A stretch of 64,000 bases of DNA from Geosiphon pyriformis (Eukaryota > Glomeromycota > Glomeromycetes > Archaeosporales > Geosiphonaceae), in assembly GCA_016748015.1 (NCBI GenBank), contig JAAOMT010000436.1, forward strand, positions 940,033-1,004,032. The letters run 5' to 3'. The position numbers and the translations under genes are program-made. The notes below the pieces were generated by a model, which did not search any database, was not told the DNA's origin, and worked only from the letters and a program-made list of their open reading frames with translations. Shown one piece after another: positions 34,797 through 63,245 of this stretch. Positions within the stretch are counted from its first letter, which is position 1. The number at the start of each line of letters is the position of its first letter.

Positions 34797-36145
34797 ATGT
34801 TTGAAAATAACGAAGCAAAATTACATTCCTTCACGCATTTTTCAAGTATGGAAAATCTAAATTACGCAGAGACAACGCACTTTTTAAAAAGAGGAAAACA
34901 AAAAAAAAGGAAACGTAACATTGGATTAAAGCTTAAAGAAGAAACTGTGGAGGATTTGATCACTGGGATTGAGGAGAAAAAGTAACCACTCTGCAAGTTC
35001 CTCACTTTACTCTTCATAATGGGCAAAAACAAGATTTACATCTCCTTCCTTAATTTTACAAGAAACTTGTTGGAGAGTAGCCAGTTCTATAAAGAAATCA
35101 AAGGCAAGTTTTGATTCCCTTTGTCCTTAAGATTTCTTGGGACTAACACATTTATCTGATAATAGAATCAATCCAAGGAACTCTATTAAATCCAGTTTGT
35201 TCCTCACTCGTTGATATCGTATCTTATGGCATTGGTAGTATTCAAGATTCTCGTATGTCTCAATATCAGTTTGCTTTTCTCTTGTTATTGTGGAATTTAT
35301 TTCAGGTGATGGAAACATTTTATTTCAGGTCATTAAAACATATTGATTTGGCCATTCTATCTGATTCTTTTCCCATTTTCAGATACCCGGGGCCGTGTAT
35401 GCTTACGATCCGATATTTACTACAATAGATGTGCAAATCTTACTACATTATGGGATAAAACTGATAGACAAAAACGAGGTATTGCTAAAAAAAAACAAAA
35501 ACAAAGATATCTGAAATTATTTTCCATGAAGTTACTTATAAAGCATACTTTGCTATTGCAACTGTAACCTGATCGATTCTCTAAGAGCGCTAAACGACCC
35601 ATCATCCAGCCTACATTATTTTATATGCCTCATTGCCCAATTGGCTTATATAACAATGTAGTCGGGGCAAATTGGGAAAGGACTCACTTAACGAGGATGC
35701 TCATTATAGGAAATCGGCTCGATTACTATCTTTATATGTAAAGTCTTATACAAGGAAGATTTGAATATTGATTTTCCATGCACTCTTTTCATCAACTTGA
35801 AAAGTGGTATCTTTTGATAGGTATACAGCGACGAAATTTGAAGCAAAAGCGCCTTATTTACCTTCAATATCCTTTTAATTCGGAAATAGTTTTATGGCTC
35901 TTTATTTCGAGTTTTTATTTATTTAACTTTAACCGACTCCCTATAACGCATTGGCAATTATGCAATCCCTTCCATTTCCTTTACTCAATGAGACTGACAA
36001 TTCATTGTCGGTGATGCCCAGCTACACATTCATCGAAACATGTTGGCAATGGTTTCCCGCAAATGGAAGACTAGCAAATCATGGAGATGATGATATTGAA
36101 TTTTGGAGTTCTAAAATATTCCCCGAACTTGAGAGTGATAATTAA
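34797..36145 (+). CDS. SRR1: SRR1-like domain protein
   Basis: Member of the SRR1-like family (plant SRR1, yeast Ber1), linked in other species to circadian input, microtubules or heme; biochemical role unsettled. Seven exons join in frame to 285 residues: 34797-34981, 35063-35103, 35166-35305, 35383-35478, 35586-35737, 35821-35866 and 35948-36145. A basic N terminus leads to the domain: NLLESSQFYKEIK, VSYGIGSIQDSRMSQYQFAF near 100, VYAYDPIFTTID near 135, and FYMPHCPIGLYNN with ANW near 180, then GNRLDYYLYM. Intron 2 is GC-AG. Intron 6 has no usable GT or AG but starts ATATCCTTTT and ends AC, fitting a U12-type intron; removing it keeps the frame into a terminal FIETCWQWFP segment matching the family end. 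All exon sums divide by three. Confidence 0.85.
35104..35165 (+). other. GC-AG intron in the SRR1-like gene
   Basis: 62-bp intron with donor AAAG/gcaagt and acceptor aatag. GC replaces GT but the rest of the donor matches the strong consensus usual for GC-AG introns. Removing it joins EIK to ESIQGTLLNPVC in frame; no GT donor nearby gives an open frame. Confidence 0.75.
35867..35947 (+). other. Candidate U12-type AT-AC intron in the SRR1-like gene
   Basis: 81-bp intron with 5' end ATATCCTTTT, an exact match to the U12 donor consensus, and 3' end TATAAC. A branch-like ACTTTAAC lies about 15 nt before the 3' end, in the window expected for U12 introns. The upstream exon meets a TAA inside the intron, and the spliced frame is phase 0 on both sides. 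No GT-AG alternative keeps the frame. Confidence 0.7.
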
Positions 36146-36799: not shown

Positions 36800-39425
36800 T
36801 ATTATTAAAAGTTTAACGAGTAAAGTCCAAACACCACCTAGTGCTATACATCATACAAATGATCTAAACTAGGTGCGAATCATGCCTTTGCTACATGTGA
36901 CCAGACACTCAAACTAGTCAGAACAACACTACACACTTATATGAACAGAAGCCATGTTACCAACACCTGCATAAAACAAACAATACTTACAATACCCAAA
37001 ACTGATGCCAAATGCATTAGCAACACCCAACAACCTAATCACCCCAGCCAAAAGCCATGTAAAAAAACCAGAAACAGCAACAGGAATGGAACCATCATGT
37101 GGAATCAGCTTATTCTTTTCCATAATGGCCTGGTGTTTTGCATAGACCAGCCAAATATTATCATGAAATACAAGACAAAATTCACGTACAAAATTCACAA
37201 TATTAACCACTACCATCTTAGGATCCTTGTAAACAGAAACAGACTCATGATACCAATCACCGAAAACAAAGCCCTTACACAGGGCCATACTGACAGTTAC
37301 ATCTGAAATGCAAGTCGACAATAACTGCAATACACATGAAAAAGAATGAAACAGACCAGAACACACCTCCTAGGCAGCTGCATAAGTGTCCAACAAACTG
37401 GCATGACTATCAGTGTCAGAAAAGCAAGAAAAGACATGGTCTGAGATTTCAATCTTATCACAGAACAAACAAACTACACTGAGATAACTCCTATTATACA
37501 GATGCTTTCGCACAGCAACAGAAAGGTAATGATGAAGGGCCTTTATGAAATATGTACGAAAGCCAGCCATCCAAATATTAGTAAAACCAATTGCCATGTG
37601 GGAATCCGGGTGCCACACCAAAGAGGACCTGGACCAATCAATATCACTATGCAAATCATCTGCCACAACTTTTGAGCTGGAACCAATCTCTCAATGTGCT
37701 CAATGAACAGACTGAAAAACATTATGAATGAAATGCCTAGAATTACCAGAAACCACAGCACCACCAGCTCTCAAAAAACATTTGCTAATCAAATAGGGCA
37801 GCTGCCAAGGCGAGAAAGCAGCATCTTTAGCAAGTGCATCAGCATGCTCATTGTCCAAAACACCCAAATGACCTCTTACTTTGACCCAGTTCACATCTAA
37901 ATTTTTTTGACAAATAATATTAGCAATGTGGCACCATTCGATCCAGCACCAATTCCTAAAATCCAGACAAACCAACAAAGACTCAGATTTGCATACATCT
38001 AAAGCTGACTGGCTGTCTGAAAACAAGTCAACTGAACAGGAAGAGAAAACACACTCAAGAGCCAGTGCAATGGCTTGCAGCTCTGTCAGAGTAGAAGAAA
38101 CCAGACCAGACACCCCTACACCCAAACCTAAATCAATGTCCTCAAAAAAAACAGCTGCACCAGCTTTCATATCAACAGTTCCCAAACTAATCAGAGACTC
38201 ATCCATATATGTAGAGAGGCAAGCCATATCAGTATTCAAAAGATTGTCACAAACGACACCAAAATCATGAGATTGACGAATATCAGAGGAGACATGACCA
38301 TCTATAGGCGAAAAACAAACAGAAGAAAAAGCAGCATCATTGAAAAAACAAACAGAGAGATCAAACCAGAAAAGAACCAGGCCATGGAGATCTAATCTCT
38401 TTCAATGCTTGAAAGTCTGCCAACTGAAAGGAATACCACTTTTATTACAGAGTTGGTCTACAAAGACAATTCTATAGTACTGGAGTGAAGAAACACACTT
38501 GACAAAATTAGGCTCACCAAGAACAAGAGACATAGGGGTGCCATTCCGAAGGCGAAAAGCACAGGCCAGAGAGCCATCCAAGGACAAACCACAACCAGAA
38601 AAAATATGAACCACACCCGCCAGAAAGTTATTCAAAGGAATGACACCAATACAAGCCAGAAACAGCAAAAAATAATGAGGATGCCAACTAAGAGCCTGGA
38701 AATCAAAGGACCTGTGAGAGAACAAATGACCCAAAACACCAATCAAATTTGCAAAAGCAACAACAGATGCTGATTTGCTCTCAGCCTGAATCTGCTCAAA
38801 AGTTTTCAAACCATATAAAGAGAGATGATGGAGCATGTCATTGAGAAAATCAACCAGCAGGCCAGCCTTAGATTTCAAACTCTTGCAAATCATAGCATCT
38901 CACTTATTGTACATACTAATAGAAACAAAACTAAATTGAGTCTTATAATTGATGATAGGAAAAAGAACTGCAGACACCAAATACATAAACTGTTTATCTG
39001 ACACAGCCTTCCTAAAAACAAGATTGATGAAAAAACAAATGTCCGAATAAGCCTTTGCCAGACTGGGCTTCAAAAGACTCTTAGAAGATAGAAATATACC
39101 CAGATAATGATGAGACTCCCCTTTTTTGGCAATAGAAATAGGTAACCCACTAACAGTCAGATAGAGACTCACTACTCGACAGTTAATAGAAATGGCTACA
39201 GTCTTGTCATTATTAATCGAAATGTTATTGAACCTGAAAAAATTACTAACAATATTGAGAATGTGTTGCATAATAGCCTGGCTGCTACCAACCCAAATTG
39301 TATCATCAACAAAAGCACCAGCAGCCAAAAATGAAATCAGCCCAGTCTAAGATTCAGCCCAGCCAGTTTTGGAGATAAAATAAGAATTCAATCTATAGTT
39401 ATACACTTTCTTGTCTTTTAACCTC
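36800..39425 (-). mobile_element. LINE retrotransposon copy B, 5'-truncated
   Basis: Minus-strand 3' part of the same LINE family: 3' UTR at 36800-36928, then the end of ORF2 back to the RT palm. The 3' UTR shares the conserved block around gatctaaactaggtgcg with the copies ending near 47410 and 61620. Alignment to the full copy stops near 39425, inside the RT domain. Truncation at the 5' side is typical of incomplete target-primed reverse transcription. Confidence 0.9.
36929..39345 (-). pseudogene. LINE copy B ORF2 C-terminal part: RT palm/thumb, RNase H, CxxC-H-C motif
   Basis: Broken ORF2. The RT palm motif reads AGAFVDDTIWVGSS near 39290, with the catalytic Asp pair intact, followed by INNDKTVAIS. 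The thumb region spans 38893-38402. RNase H covers about 38190-37800: MDESLISLG with the first acidic residue, ELQAIALALE, LFSDSQSAL and GHLGVLDNEHADALAK. A C-terminal CLFC...H...C zinc-type motif lies near 37460. Stops at 38900-38902 (TGA) and 37370-37372 (TAG) fall where another copy reads TGG. Confidence 0.85.
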
Positions 39426-40672: not shown

Positions 40673-40743
40673 AAAAAACTTCTTTCTTTCGTTTCTCCAC
40701 AAATCCCAAAAAAGAGTCAAAAGTTTTTTGAAAGAAGTTTTTT
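40673..40743. promoter_or_regulatory. 14-bp perfect inverted repeat at the LINE 5' end
   Basis: Arms AAAAAACTTCTTTC (40673-40686) and its exact reverse complement (40730-40743), 43 bp apart. The minus-strand copy keeps 13 of 14 pairs at 3563-3633. Being conserved in two diverged copies, it may be part of the internal promoter or an RNA hairpin. Confidence 0.7.
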
Positions 40744-40815
40744 ACCATTCAGTATGATAAATCCAAACCATTTCTGCTTGATTATGAGGCTGTTGTTGGC
40801 CCTAGTATTGCTGTC

Positions 40816-42586
40816 ATGAAAAAGACAGTTGAAAGTTCTGGCTCTGTAGGTGGTTTCAAGGCTGTTCTGTTAAGGAAAAAGAGAAGAGGCGGTGTTTTTG
40901 AAGACAATACTGGTGCTAAAAAGGGTTCTGCTAAGGTGCAAAATGGTCATTCATGGAGTTCGGAAACTGGTGATACCACAGAATCTGACAGTGTTGATAT
41001 AGAAAAGGAGTGTCTTGTAGAGAAAACAAGTTTCGATTATGGTGAAGATGGTGCGCTCGTTGGTGGAGATTTGGATCAGACGCTGAAGGATTCGTAGATA
41101 ACAACTAGGAAAGTGTTGGGAAAGCCTTTGGGAAAGATCAACTTCCTGGATGGCAATGATAATGATGATGTTTTTCTGGATGCCTCTCTGGTGCTTTTTC
41201 CTCCTCTTAAGAACCTGGTCAATGTTTCTGTTAGAAAGTTGTTTGCTTTGGATTTGGATCTGAAAGCAGTAGAAAGAAATTCGGCCCAGGAAAAGCTCAA
41301 AAAGATCAGGAGTTTATTTTCAGGAATCAATAGTTTTGGGGGGGCATCTATCCCCTCAAAATTCTCAGAGATCATCAGAGCGACATTCACTTTCGAATTG
41401 AGTTTAATAAAAGCCACTAAAAAGGCTACTGGTGTGAATATCATGGTAAACACCGATCTTAAGAGATCGGGCTGTGGTGTTGAAGGAAATTCCAGTTGGA
41501 ACATCAACTGAGGCTGTGTGCGCTGTGATCTCTGAGTTTGGGACAATTAAGTTGATCAAGATGCAATTGGTGGGGCTGTGACAGAAGGCTGTAGTAGAAT
41601 TTGAGCATTCAGATTACACCGATTTGGTCATAGCAAAGTGGTCAATCTTAATCGGGAAAGATGCTATGTGGATGGCTAGATCAAATTTGGACAAAGAGTC
41701 ATGGGACACGAGGGATCAGCATAGAGCGCTCTTCTATACTCTGCCAATGGGAACGACTGTTCATGACATCTAGAATTTTATTGGTTCTGTGGGTGGAAAG
41801 ACGTGTGTCATTAATTATCATCCGATTACATATGCTAGGACTAGGTGTGCTGTCATCTGTTTTGATTCTGCTGAATCATTGGATGCCATTGTGGGAACTA
41901 TGCCAGTGTTGAGGGGTGCCAATCTATGCTGGTCTTGTCTTATCTTGGCCAAGTATGCCAAGTGTGAGAAATTAGGCCATACGTCATTGGGCTGTGCAGT
42001 TGGTGGGAGAGTTTTTTCGGGTTTGTCTTCGCATAGAGTCCTGTTGAATACAGATAAAAGCAGATTGGCAGCCATCTATACCAAGCAATCAGCTCTAGTT
42101 GCTCGTCCAGTCTCTTTCAGTGGTCTCTCTTGGGCGAAGGTTGCTAATGGGTCTTCTTTTCCTTCTCTCTCTGAACGAAATGCTTCAGTAAAATTTGGTT
42201 CCTTTTCGGAGATGGAGCCATTTCTGCCAGTTTCGATGAAAGTTAATGATAGGTTTGCTGCTCTTGAGCGCAGTCTCGCCAGCCTTGCGGAGTAGGTGGG
42301 TAAGCTGGCTAAGAGGTTGGATGCACTTGGGCCAATGGTTTCCCAGCCAAGCCCTGGATGTCAGCCATTGGTGACCCTTTCATCACAGAATCAAGGGGCA
42401 GATATAGTGATAAGTGAGGGTTCGGGTGCAGCCACTAGTGGTGAGATTGTTGCGAGAGTGGTGTCTTCTGATGTATCTTTGGTATCTAAGTTGGAAGACA
42501 GCATGAAGTGTCTGATGGAAACAGTTCTGGGACTTTCAGCCAAAGTGGACAGTTTTGGGGCAAGTTCAAATTCCTTTTCTTCTTAA
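40816..42586 (+). pseudogene. LINE copy C ORF1 (nucleic-acid-binding protein), broken
   Basis: Starts ATGAAAAAGACAGTTG and runs open to a TAG at 41095-41097, then continues in 41113-41511, shifts frame, and goes on in 41789-42295 and 42296-42586. The 41113 segment matches the ORF1 part at 3190-2516 (KPLGKI start, NLVNVSVRK). The RRM-like part is frame-shifted near 41500-41780. The knuckle near 41950-41995 reads YAKCEKLGHTSLGC: the first Cys is Tyr, while the sister copy has lost the second Cys instead. The TAG at 42293-42295 replaces a Gln codon found in the sister copy. Confidence 0.85.
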
Positions 42587-45500
42587 TAAACAGTCTGGTT
42601 TGGAATTTTGCTACTTGCAACATCAGAAGTATGAACAATCTTGCGAAACAGGACAATATCATTCGTTGGCATATAGAGAAGAACAATTTAGTTTCTATTT
42701 TTACAGAATCAAAGTTAAGAGGGAAATTCACCCCTGGATTGTCAACAAATATGATGATGTGTGGGTGTTTACCTCTGGTTTGGAATCTGGCTATCTGGGA
42801 GCTGGTGTCGCTGTCGTCATGAATTCTTCTTTGGCGAAACATGTGTGCAAAGTGTCAGAGGTGCCTGGTCAGCTCTTGTCTATTAAGTTACTTTTCAAAA
42901 ATAAACTTTCAGTGTCTATTCTGGGTCTGTATGCTGGTGCTTCCTCAGCAGTTCAGTTCTCTCAGACTGGTGAAGTCAACTCTCTCATTGCAAAAGCTGT
43001 TAATGAATCTTTTTTTGTTGTTCTCGGTGGTGATTTCAATGAAGACAGTTCTCACAGGTGTGCGAGTTTTAAAAAGTGTCTGAATTTGGGTCTGGTTAAT
43101 GCCTTGGGTGGAAGCTCCTATGGGAAATTACCGACTTGGTCCAATTCTCGAGGCATTGCTAAGATGATTGATTTTATGTTCATTTCTTCAAATCTGGTCA
43201 ATGCAGTTGTGAGTCATGACATGTTTGGCATTGGGGAATACTTTGATACTGATCATCAGGCTGTCTCAGTATTAGTGGGTTTGGGTAGTCTGCTCGATGT
43301 TCAGTTGGATTCTGTTCACAGACAAGCAAATAGAGATTGCTGGAAGTACGATTGCAAAGGTGCGGATGATGTTAAATGGGCCAAATTTAAGGAAGATACG
43401 GCAGCAAATGCTGCTGTGTTTCATGATGATTTTTTTGTAGCCAGGGTCTGCTCGGACTTGGATTTGATGTGGGTTGCTCTCCGTAAAGTGATGTGTCTGT
43501 CTGCCAAGGCGGTTTTCAGGAAAAAGTGGTTCAAGAAATATGATAAAATTTTTAACAAGGATTCATCCAAATTTCACAAGCTGGAGCTCTTGGTGTCTAA
43601 GTTAGTTAGAGCATCTCATATGGATTCTGCTGAGAAGTTTACATCCCTGTTCGACAGGTGAGAAGATTTGGATTCAGTCAATGCTTCTGCGGTGAAGTCT
43701 TTCTTCCTATCAGGTTCCCACTTCAATGCTATTCAGTCAGTTTTGTATAAGGTCAAAAAGTCTTATCGCACATCCAAAATGTCAGAAGCGGAGCGAGTTA
43801 GAGAATCTCAAATCAGGTCGGCAATAGATAAAAGGATGGAGAGTTTTGAATTGGACAAAAGTCATACTATTAGGAATGTATTAGAATGTTCTTTTTGCAA
43901 AGTAACTTTGAATCATCTGGTTGTTGATGGTGAGTTGGTTTTGGAGCCTGCTCTGGTTAAGGCCAAAGTGGATGCAGTCATGAAGGAATGGACTAGGAAG
44001 CGCGATGTAGTTTCTGATATTACTGGTGTCTGGAGTCGCCAATATCAGCCTTTAGAGTATGTTTTTGACAACGCTTTTTCTGGTGTAATAAGCCTAATTG
44101 ATTTTGATAAAATGTTTAGTGTCGTTTTGAACCTGCCTGATGAGAAAGCTGCTGGTCTCTCTGGTATCTCAAATGAGTTGTAGAAACATAGCGACAAATC
44201 GGTTTTGGACATGCTTTTAGTGCTTTTGAATGTTTGCTTGGAGCATGAATCTGTTCCTGGGCCTTGGAAGGAGGCTTGGGTATCAATGATCCCCAAACCT
44301 TATGAATGGGAGAGTGTTCTCATGAACATTTGTCCTATTGCTTTGGTTGAAATGGCTCGCAAAATTCTTTCTAAGGTGCTTTCAGACAGAATTTTTTTGG
44401 CTTGTAGTGTTTTCGACATTCTGAGGGGGGATAATTTTTCTGTTTTAAAAGGCACAACCACACAGTCTCCCATTTTTGCTATTGGTTTGGTCATTGAGGA
44501 TGCTTTGGAGAAAAACCGAGAACTGTGGCTGGTCTTGCAAGACATGCGAAAGGCTTATAATTCTGTTGGCTGGGAGCATCTGAGGAAGAGCTTGGTCAGA
44601 ATAAAAATGTGTAACAAATTCATTCAGTTTTTTGGTGGCATTCACAATGATCAGGTCAACAGAGTTATGACGGATTTTGGGTTGACTGATGGATATTGGG
44701 TACATGATAGTTTGGATCAAGGGGAGGTGTTTTCTCCTCTTCTCTGGCGCATATTTTATGATCCCCTTTTGTGTGAGGTCAAGAGGCAAGAGAGTGTATG
44801 TGGATACAGGTTAGACTCTCGTTTTGTTGCCAACACTGGTCGTGCTGAATCTCGGGCTGGTTTGACTTCTTTCCTTGCTGCTGGTGCTTTCGTCAATGAT
44901 ACAATTTGGATTGGTAGCAGCCAGGCTGCCACCCAACATATTCTCAATGTTGCTAGTGAGTTTTTTCGAGTCAATGACATTTCGATCAATAATGACAAAA
45001 CGGTGGCCATTCCCATTAATTGCAAAGTTTTCAGCCCTCGTTTGTTGATCAGTGGTTTGCCTATTTCGATAGCCAAAAAGGGAGAGTCTCATCAGTACCT
45101 GGATATCTTTCTGTCTACTGAAGGTTTGTTAAAGTCTAGCTTGGCTAAGGCACGCTTGGATGTCCAGTTTTTCACCAACCTTGTTCTGAGAAAGGCTATC
45201 TCTGATAAGCAGTTCTCATATTTAGTGTCAGTGGTTCTTCACCCCATAATTGCCTATAAGATTCAGTTTAGTTTTGTTCCTATTAGTGTATGTGTGAAAT
45301 GGGACACTTTGATTCGTAAAGGTTTGAAGTCCAAATCTGGTCTGCTGCTCGACTTTTCCAATGATGCTATTCATCATCCTTCTCTGTATGGGTTAAAATC
45401 TTTTAAACAGGTCCAGGCTGAGAGCAAGTCAGCTGCTGTTGTTTGTTTTGCCAATTCTGTAGGTATTTTGGGCCGTCTGTTTGTGCATAGGTCTCATGAT

Positions 45501-47273
45501 TTACAGGTTCTCAGCTAGTGCCCTCGTCACCCCTTGCTTTTCTCTTCTCATATTAATGTCAGTCCTTTGAATAACTTTTTGGCTGGTGTCGTCTGGATTT
45601 TTTTGGGTTGTGACTTTTCTCTAGATGGTCTCGTGACCAAAGCTTTTTGTTTTCAAAAAGAGACTCCAATGTCTATTGTTTTTGGTGAGTTAGCTTTTTA
45701 TAAATGTGTCTCTTCGCTTTGGTGATATGGAATTGCCTTTTTTGAGCAGCTTCGCGACCGAACTGGTTCTGTTTTCGAATGGAGGACTTTCAAGCAGTAG
45801 AAGAGACTGGACCCTCAGGGCCCGATTCCTGATTGGTTCAATGCTGCTGTTCGCTTTTTGTCTGGTTCTGGGTCATCTTCCATTTGTTTTCTTTTACCAC
45901 TGAATGTTGATTCATCTGATGTATTTGTGTCTTGCGAGTTTGATGTTGTTTGCAATCGCTTGTTGGAGGTTGATTCTGATCGTCTTTTTTTGTTTATGGA
46001 TGGTTCTCTGTGTGGGCTAGGTACTCTTGGTATGAAGGCTGGCACCACTGTTTTTTTTGGGGACATTGATTTGGGTTTGGGTGTAGAAGTTTCTGGTTTG
46101 GTTTCTTCTACTATGACGGAGCTGTAGGCCATTGCTTTGGCTCTCGAGTGTGTCCCTCCTTCTCGTTTAGTTAATATGTTTTCGGACAGCCAGGCCGCTT
46201 TAGATGCATGCAGGTCAGAGTTAATGTTAGGGCGTCCAAATTTTAGGAATCAGTGTTGGGTCAAACGCCACCATATTTCTAATGTTATTCATCGCAAAAA
46301 TTTGGATGTTAATTGGATTAAAGTTAGGGGTCACTCTGGAGTCTTGGGCAATAAGCATGCTGACACTTTGGCTAGGGCTGCAGCGTCTTTTGGTGTGCAT
46401 CTTCCTCACAGGATTGATGAACATTTTCTCAAGGCTGGTGGTACTGTGGTTTCTGGTAATTCTAGACATTTTGTTTGTGGTGTTTTCCGCTCTATTTACT
46501 GTGCACATTGGGAGGTCAGTTCTGGTTCTCGGGTATTGGTGGACAGTCTGCATGCTAATGTTGATTGGTCCAGATCATGTTCGGTGTGACATCCGGACTC
46601 TCATTTGGCCGCTGGTTTTACTAGTGCTTGTACTGCTGGTTCTCAGACGTATTTTATGAAGGTGTTGCATCATCATCTTCCTGTTGCTGTGTGTAAGCAA
46701 CTTTATGATAAAGGGTACTCCAGTGTGTTGTGTTTGTTCTGTGGCGATGTTGAGATTTCAGATCATGTGTTTTTATGCCCATTCAATGCTGGTGATTGTG
46801 CTCGGTTGATAAACGCTCATGCATCTGTTTGGAAGATGTGCTCAGATTTAGCTTACTTGACTTCATGTGTTTTACAGTTGCTTTCTGCTTGCACTTCCAA
46901 TGCTGTTGTTAGTACGGCTATATGTAAGAGCTTTGTATTCAATGAGTGGTATTGTGAATCTTTTTCTGTTTTCAAGGACGCTAAAATGGCAGCTCGGAAT
47001 ATCGTGGCATTTGTGCGCGAATTCTGTCTTGCATTCCAAGATAATATTTGGCTAGTACGTGCAAAGCACAGAGCTGTTATGGAGAAGGGTGGCCTGATCT
47101 CATGTGATGGTTCTATTCCTATCTCGATTTCTGGTCTTCCTTCGGTGCTCTCGTCCAGTATGGTTAGATTGTTGGGTATGGCTGATGCATTTGGTATTGG
47201 TTTTGGGTTTCGTGAATCTAGTTTATTCTTTTCTGGTGTAGGTAAAATGGTCTTAGTGCATATAGGTGTCTAG
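42508..47273 (+). pseudogene. LINE copy C ORF2: endonuclease, reverse transcriptase, RNase H, broken
   Basis: Polyprotein of about 1580 codons if repaired. Endonuclease: CNIRSMNN and TESKLRGK (about 42615-42725), a one-base deletion near 42725, then VLGGDFNED (43020) and DTDHQAVSV (43245). RT: PDEKAAGLSGISNEL (44130), KEAWVSMIPKP (44270), LVLQDMRKAYNSV (44530) and AGAFVNDTIW (44885), where the first catalytic Asp is Asn. RNase H: MDGSLCGLG (45995), ELQ-type stop then AIALALE, MFSDSQAAL (46170) and KVRGHSGVLGNKHADTLAR (46320). A C-terminal CLFCGDVEISDHVFLC motif lies at 46735. Stops at 43659, 44181, 45516, 46125 and 46587 are TAG or TGA. No active enzyme can be made. Confidence 0.88.
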
Positions 47274-47410
47274 TGTTGTCCTAACTAGTCTGAGTGGCTA
47301 GTCATGTGTAGAAAGAGCATGATTCACGCCTAGTTTAGATCACTTATATGATGTATTGTACTAGGTAGTGTTTGGACCTCACTTGTTAATATAAATAAAT
47401 AAATAAAAAA

Positions 47411-61604: not shown

Positions 61605-63245
61605 TTTTTTTTTTTTTTTTTTACATGTTTATTGAGTGAAGTCCAATGAAATACATCAAATAATTGATCTAAATTAGGTACGAATCATGCATTTTCCACA
61701 TGTGACCAGCCATTCAGGCCAATCAAGACAATATTAAGCACTTATACTAACAGAAATTACATCAAAAGCATCAGAAATAAACAAACTGAACCTACGAAAA
61801 CCAAAACTAACACCTAAGACTACATCAATACCCAACAATCTGATAACCCCAGCAGAGTAAACAAAGGATAGGCCAGATTTAGAATTAGGCAAAGAACTGT
61901 CACAAGGGATCAAATTATGCTTTTCTATAAAGGCACAATACTTAGCATGGACTGACCAAATCTCATCCCTAAAAGCGAGACACAGAGTATGTACAAAGTT
62001 TACAATCTTCACACCAGCACTCTTAGAATTACCAAACACAGAGACTGCTTTATGAAACCACTCCTTAAAAACAAATCCTTTGCACAAGGCAATACAGAAT
62101 GAAATGTTCAAAACACAAAAAGACAAAAATTGTAACACACTAAAAATGGAATGATGAAGGCCAGAAATATTCTCCCAAATCATTGCGTAGTTCTTCAGAA
62201 GACGAACACGAGTAGCAGCATCAACATCACAAGAAAAAACATGGTCAGAAATCTCTACACAGCCACAAAATAAGCAGATTACACTTGGGTAATCTTTATC
62301 ATAAAGGCATTTGCAAACAGCAACAGACAGCCTGTAATGTAAAGCTTTTATGAAATATGTGTGAATGCCAGCAGTGCATTTACTAGTAAGACCAGCAGCC
62401 ATATGTGAATCAGGATGCCAAACAGAGACAGATCTCTGCCAATCAATGTTTGCCAACAAATCTTGAGTCACAACATAGGTGTCTGAACCATACTCCCAAC
62501 GTAGACAATGAATAGAACAAAAAATATCATAAACAAAATGTCTAGAATTACCTGAAACAATATCACTACCAGCCAAGATGAATCTTTCATTCAACTGGGG
62601 GGGAAGAATCAAATTAGAGAAAACAGCATAGCCAGCCAGCTTATCAGCACAGTTGTTGCCAAAATTACCAGAATGGCCCTTAACCTTATGCCAGGTGATT
62701 TTCAACCTCTTTGAGCATACAAAATTTGCAATATAATGGCATTCCACCCAGCAGCGATTATGGAAATCTGGACAAGACACACTTAATTCAGATTTGCAAG
62801 CATCCAATACTGCCTAACTGTCCAAGAACAAACTAATACTACTAGACACTAGAACACACTCAAGGGCAAGTGCTATTGCCTGCAATTTTGCTAGTGTAGA
62901 TAACATCAAACCTGAAACCTTAACTTCCATACCCATGTTAATGTCATCAAAGAAAACCACTGCACCAGACTTTATGTTAACAGATCCCAAGCCAGACAAA
63001 GAACTGTTTGTGTACACTGAGATGCAGCCAGCACCCAGACCAGATAAGTGATCATGAACCAAACCAAACTCAACAGAATTCAAAACACTAGAGGTATTAG
63101 CATCACCCAATAATAGATTTTGCACAGAAGAAGCTACCGTATTACCCAGAAATTTAATAGACAAGACAAACTACTCAGGAATGGGGCCACATGGATCCAG
63201 CCTTTTCCAATGCTTAAAGGTCACTCACTCAAAAACACCACCCTT
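61605..63245 (-). mobile_element. LINE retrotransposon copy D, 3' part with poly(A) tail
   Basis: Minus-strand LINE end. The plus-strand run of 18 T at 61605-61622 is its poly(A) tail, then 3' UTR to 61733 and ORF2 back to just before RNase H. Homology to the full copy ends near 63245, immediately before the 750-bp repeat starting at 63251, so the LINE was either interrupted by that repeat or truncated at its edge. Confidence 0.88.
61734..63230 (-). pseudogene. LINE copy D ORF2 C-terminal part: RNase H and CxxC-H-C motif
   Basis: RNase H begins YTNSSLSGLG near 63015, with KLQAIALALE near 62880 and SLFLDS near 62820. A TAG at 62814-62816 replaces the Gln codon of the DSQ motif in the sister copies. 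The frame then stays open from 62807 to the end at 61734: KVKGHSGNFGNNCADKLAG, WHPDSHMAAGL and CLFCGCVEISDHVFSC. A further TAG near 63171 falls at a TGG of the full copy. This is the best preserved C terminus in the window. Confidence 0.85.

Follow-up and report, generated by a model that had tools for sequence, protein, structure and literature searches.

Introduction

Minor (U12-type) introns have been described in several early-diverging fungal lineages. In Rhizophagus irregularis, 205 of them have been reported, together with all four minor snRNAs and with minor-spliceosome proteins (Larue and Roy 2023, PMC10639083), and phase 0 is the rarest phase of the minor introns there. For Basidiobolus meristosporus the same study gives a count of 249, and it finds minor introns also in a chytrid and in Neocallimastigomycetes, while no convincing ones are seen in Ascomycota and Basidiomycota (PMC10639083). 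Already in 2010, U12 introns of Rhizopus and Phycomyces were listed, the AT-AC and GT-AG subtypes being about equal in number in Phycomyces (PMC2846911).

Here, we consider a candidate intron of this type in an SRR1-domain gene of Geosiphon pyriformis, located at 34.8–36.1 kb of a 64-kb window (the whole stretch of DNA that was analysed), which lies on contig 330 of the genome. In a preliminary description of this DNA, an AT-AC intron with U12-type ends was proposed at 35867-35947, and a working minor spliceosome was taken to follow from it. The finding is less new than that description implied, as papers from 2010 and 2023 already report minor introns for early-diverging fungi. The SRR1 intron is not novel in kind and fits the reports on early-diverging fungi; a literature search turned up no paper on a minor intron in an SRR1 gene.

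Results and Discussion

The SRR1 gene

The gene was identified by its match to the Pfam SRR1 family (PF07985, 137.6 bits, cut-off 24), the score being that of the in-frame product of the last five exons in the AT-AC isoform. This product has 210 residues in frame and is similar to the profile up to its end. No second SRR1 gene was found in the genome search. The features are as follows:

34998..35103, forward strand: upstream SRR1 exon, 5' limit uncertain
35104..35165, forward strand: GC-AG intron with a GCAAGT donor, as suggested by frame and SRR1 homology
35166..35305, forward strand: SRR1 exon, from frame and SRR1 profile
35383..35478, forward strand: SRR1 exon, from frame and SRR1 profile
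35586..35737, forward strand: SRR1 exon, acceptor picked by frame and homology
35821..35866, forward strand: SRR1 exon preceding the minor intron (...KAPYLPS), from frame and SRR1 profile
35867..35947, forward strand: putative U12-type AT-AC intron, 81 nt, phase 0, from frame, comparison with alternatives and SRR1 profile
35867..35876, forward strand: U12-type 5' splice site ATATCCTTTT, from donor consensus and U11 pairing
35927..35933, forward strand: branch-site candidate CTTTAAC, 6/9 to TTCCTTRAY
35946..35947, forward strand: 3' splice site AC
35948..36145, forward strand: last SRR1 exon (ALAIMQSLPFP... to TAA), from frame and SRR1 profile

It had been stated that the sum of seven exons divides by three. 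If the last G of the exon before them is included, the last five exons are indeed in frame, but the full sum could not be reproduced. At the first SRR1 exon/intron boundary no convincing donor was found, the sole frame-keeping one being GTGGAG at 34947. Besides the AT-AC intron, the gene also holds the putative GC-AG intron at 35104-35165.

The neighbouring genes in the window (forkhead, aspartyl protease, galactosyltransferase, and N-acetylglutamate synthase with a NAT domain) are of eukaryotic kind, and the gene set as a whole would suit a fungus. There are also several long, interrupted frames that look like ORFs of LINE-type retrotransposons, at positions 1-3600, 37000-39300, 40700-47300 and 61700-63200 of the window; the one such frame that was tested gave no Pfam match. 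The repeats may resemble those known from arbuscular mycorrhizal fungi. Elsewhere in the genome, on contig 320, there is a full-length small-subunit rRNA gene (L018:801-2617, 1654 bits) with changes such as GCCACGG for GCCGCGG and many CpG to TpG or CpA substitutions. The changes fall at normally universal sites, and the gene looks like a degenerate rDNA copy. For AML2, a primer for arbuscular mycorrhizal fungi, a single site was found, with one mismatch, in an SSU copy of degenerate appearance.

Ends of the intron

The coordinates given in the preliminary description proved exact, as did the 81-nt length, the phase 0, the ATATCCTTTT start and the TATAAC end. The intron sequence runs from ATATCCTTTT to CTTTAACCGACTCCCTATAAC, and the junction is laid out as codon TCA, ATATCCTTTT, the intron interior, CTTTAAC, 15 nt, TATAAC and codon GCA, with ...KAPYLPS and ALAIMQSLPFP... 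as the flanking frames, again as described earlier. Removal at the AT-AC ends restores both the frame and the SRR1 protein. The donor, which had been called an exact U12 one, agrees at 10/10 positions with the U12-type 5' splice site RTATCCTTT. The branch-like CTTTAAC was likewise borne out: in the candidate AACTTTAAC the A is 15 nt from the intron end, and the match to TTCCTTRAY is 6/9, which is weak but acceptable, and which we counted as a U12-type branch site in the sense of a sequence near TTCCTTRAY that precedes the 3' end by about 10-20 nt. The overlapping TTATTTAAC reaches 7/9, at the less favourable distance of 21 nt from the intron end.

The donor 10-mer ATATCCTTTT is expected 0.76 times on the two strands of the 64-kb window and is found twice, so the word by itself is not significant. 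For donor, branch and acceptor to occur jointly where the frame requires them, chance would be far less likely than for the donor word alone. The weight of the case lies therefore in these three elements in their frame-required places, together with the machinery encoded in the genome.

Alternative splicing of the region

If the intron is retained, a TAA at 35876-35878 gives a stop four codons in, and slow or failed removal is thus predicted to truncate the protein after ...LPSISF. The preliminary description held that no GT-AG pair keeps the frame. This is correct for donors inside the exon 35821-35866, but the pair 35738-36021 is also frame-keeping (the apparent pair 35821-36021 being its zero-length-exon equivalent), and two more GT-AG pairs, with donors at 35658 and 35661 inside the previous exon and the acceptor at 35992, keep the frame as well. 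The other frame-keeping options are a few weak GC-AG pairs and AT-AC pairs that either lack U12-type donors or use other acceptors. Five isoforms were scored with Pfam, and only the one with 35867-35947 removed reaches the last position of the SRR1 profile (172/172), while the match stops at 125 to 147 in the other four. The differences in bit score are modest, 137.6 for the AT-AC isoform vs 127.7 to 135.2 for the others.

With these data at hand, the competing explanations can be weighed. The major spliceosome could use the GT-AG pair 35738-36021 and skip the small exon together with the first part of the last exon, which would preserve the reading frame. However, ca 40 residues are deleted in this way and the end of the SRR1 match is lost, the score falling from 137.6 to 127.7 bits with the match ending at profile position 125/172, and the register of U12-consensus donor, branch and acceptor would have to be a coincidence; we consider this route very improbable. 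Some AT-AC introns are known to be U2-type, and splicing of 35867-35947 by the major spliceosome has therefore a precedent in kind. The donor is here the U12 consensus ATATCCTTTT and not of the ATAAG type expected for U2-type AT-AC introns, and the genome holds the minor machinery, including a U11 of which ten bases pair with the donor (see below), so that a U2-type assignment can be given hardly any probability.

It could also be argued that the locus is a pseudogene or an assembly error at which no splicing at 35867-35947 takes place, considering that the first SRR1 exon boundary is without a convincing donor and that the case rests on genomic sequence. Against this, the other introns are intact, as is the 210-residue in-frame product with its SRR1 similarity up to the end of the profile, and the genome search gave no SRR1 gene besides this one, which makes such a scenario even less probable than the two above.

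Minor snRNAs

We now turn our attention to the minor snRNAs, which the preliminary description had named among the components to look for. The genome (124.7 Mb, 406 contigs) was searched with snRNA models scored against the Rfam cut-offs. One full-length copy each was found of U11 (80.9 bits, cut-off 39), U12 (55.1 bits, cut-off 53) and U6atac (70.9 bits, cut-off 33), and rescoring of the three by cmscan gave identical scores. The U4atac candidate (L002), at 43.7 bits, is under its cut-off of 53, but it aligns over the full length, and a pairing energy of −40.5 kcal/mol was obtained for its 5' part with U6atac.

The 5' end of U11, UAAAAGGGUG, pairs through 10/10 bases with the donor ATATCCTTTT, at −8.5 to −9.0 kcal/mol, and the donor is the best site in 200 nt. 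In the corresponding test with U12, the branch site was not singled out, the best partner of U12 there being the donor, and neither was the donor of 35867-35947 singled out by U6atac. Only the U11 pairing is thus specific. By eye, U12 can be paired with the branch site through six pairs, one of them G-U, around a bulged A.

By eye, a motif resembling CCCATAAT can be seen in front of each of the four minor snRNA genes (L001-L004), at a distance of about 60-70 nt. It is exact at U6atac and U4atac and altered at U11 and U12, and may be a shared promoter element of the four genes.

Minor-spliceosome proteins

The U11/U12-25K protein is encoded in the genome (Pfam Ubiquitin_4, 44.3 bits; similar to human 25K, E 8.6e-8). 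For U11-48K, the zinc finger was found with 27.3 bits (cut-off 21.1; E 0.013) and a separate C-terminal segment with E 7.5e-9. The second segment matters here, since the zinc-finger model also exceeded its cut-off once in a control genome. In the 25K gene (L012, contig 401), whose exons were joined by eye, the two conserved parts are apparently separated by a long insertion rich in lysine and glutamate.

Other U12-type introns in the genome

Strict donor-plus-branch patterns were run over the whole genome and over a backward-read control. The places marked are five distinct ones for AT-AC and a single one for GT-AG, without excess over the control (6 hits vs 6, and 1 vs 6). As such counts prove nothing alone, the places were judged by their flanks and by whether a protein is restored. 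Removal at U12-type ends rebuilds RAD2/XPG (E 4.6e-37), ATG9 (E 3.1e-18), the TFIIH subunit TFB4/GTF2H3 (E 4.3e-17; Pfam Tfb4, 88.2 bits) and an RSC9-like protein (E 4.5e-4), the alignment continuing through the junction in each case; the four reconstructions were picked by eye among the possible acceptors and frames. They support the presence of four further consensus U12-type introns, with AT-AC or GT-AG ends, in these genes. The position of XPG intron 1 may be conserved with human.

Another candidate, L005, is flanked by open frames that belong to no recognised family, and L006 was dropped as a minor intron, its flanks having no convincing coding frame. In terms of subtype, three AT-AC introns in recognisable genes and one in the unidentified open frame stand against one GT-AG intron, numbers that are tiny, although the donor and branch patterns used were about equally strict. 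That the minor introns of this genome are mostly of the AT-AC subtype is, on this tally and in view of the near-equal subtypes in Phycomyces, a doubtful proposition that can serve as a lead only.

Proposed splicing of the intron

Taken together, 35867-35947 is almost certainly a genuine U12-dependent AT-AC intron, as judged from the frame, the signals and the machinery, and the genome probably encodes a working minor spliceosome. The latter claim of the preliminary description is supported by the snRNA genes, by 25K and 48K, by the pairing of U11 with the donor and by the four further U12-type introns. A genome lacking all minor-spliceosome components, which would have refuted that claim, is thus not what the search showed. 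We infer that the minor snRNAs are expressed and that the intron is spliced. The 5' end of the U11 snRNP would pair with ATATCCTTTT, and U12 would pair with CTTTAAC around the bulged A, with one G-U pair. U4atac/U6atac would then take the place of U11 at the donor, and removal at AT...AC would join codon TCA to GCA and complete the SRR1 domain. Counted against the U12 reading are the branch site of 6/9 (or 7/9 at the less favourable distance), the U4atac score under the Rfam cut-off and the intron phase of 0.

Comparison with known systems

The results add one fungus whose minor spliceosome probably works, with minor introns named in SRR1, RAD2/XPG, ATG9, RSC9-like and TFB4. In the published picture, several early-diverging fungal lineages have minor introns, and Ascomycota and Basidiomycota lack them; our results agree with this picture and leave it unchanged. 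The 25K and 48K homologues encoded here are counterparts of proteins of the human U11/U12 di-snRNP (PDB 8r7n), but unlike in human 25K, a charged insertion apparently separates the two conserved halves of the 25K of this genome. As in the early-diverging fungi Phycomyces blakesleeanus and Rhizopus oryzae (PMC2846911), where AT-AC and GT-AG U12-type introns are similarly numerous, both subtypes are represented here; the introns of those two species are EST-supported, while the SRR1 intron is known from genomic sequence only. The likeness to Rhizophagus irregularis (PMC10639083) extends to the minor snRNAs U11, U12 and U6atac (U4atac being a candidate under its cut-off here), to minor-spliceosome proteins including 25K, and to animal-like U12 donor and branch motifs in a fungus.
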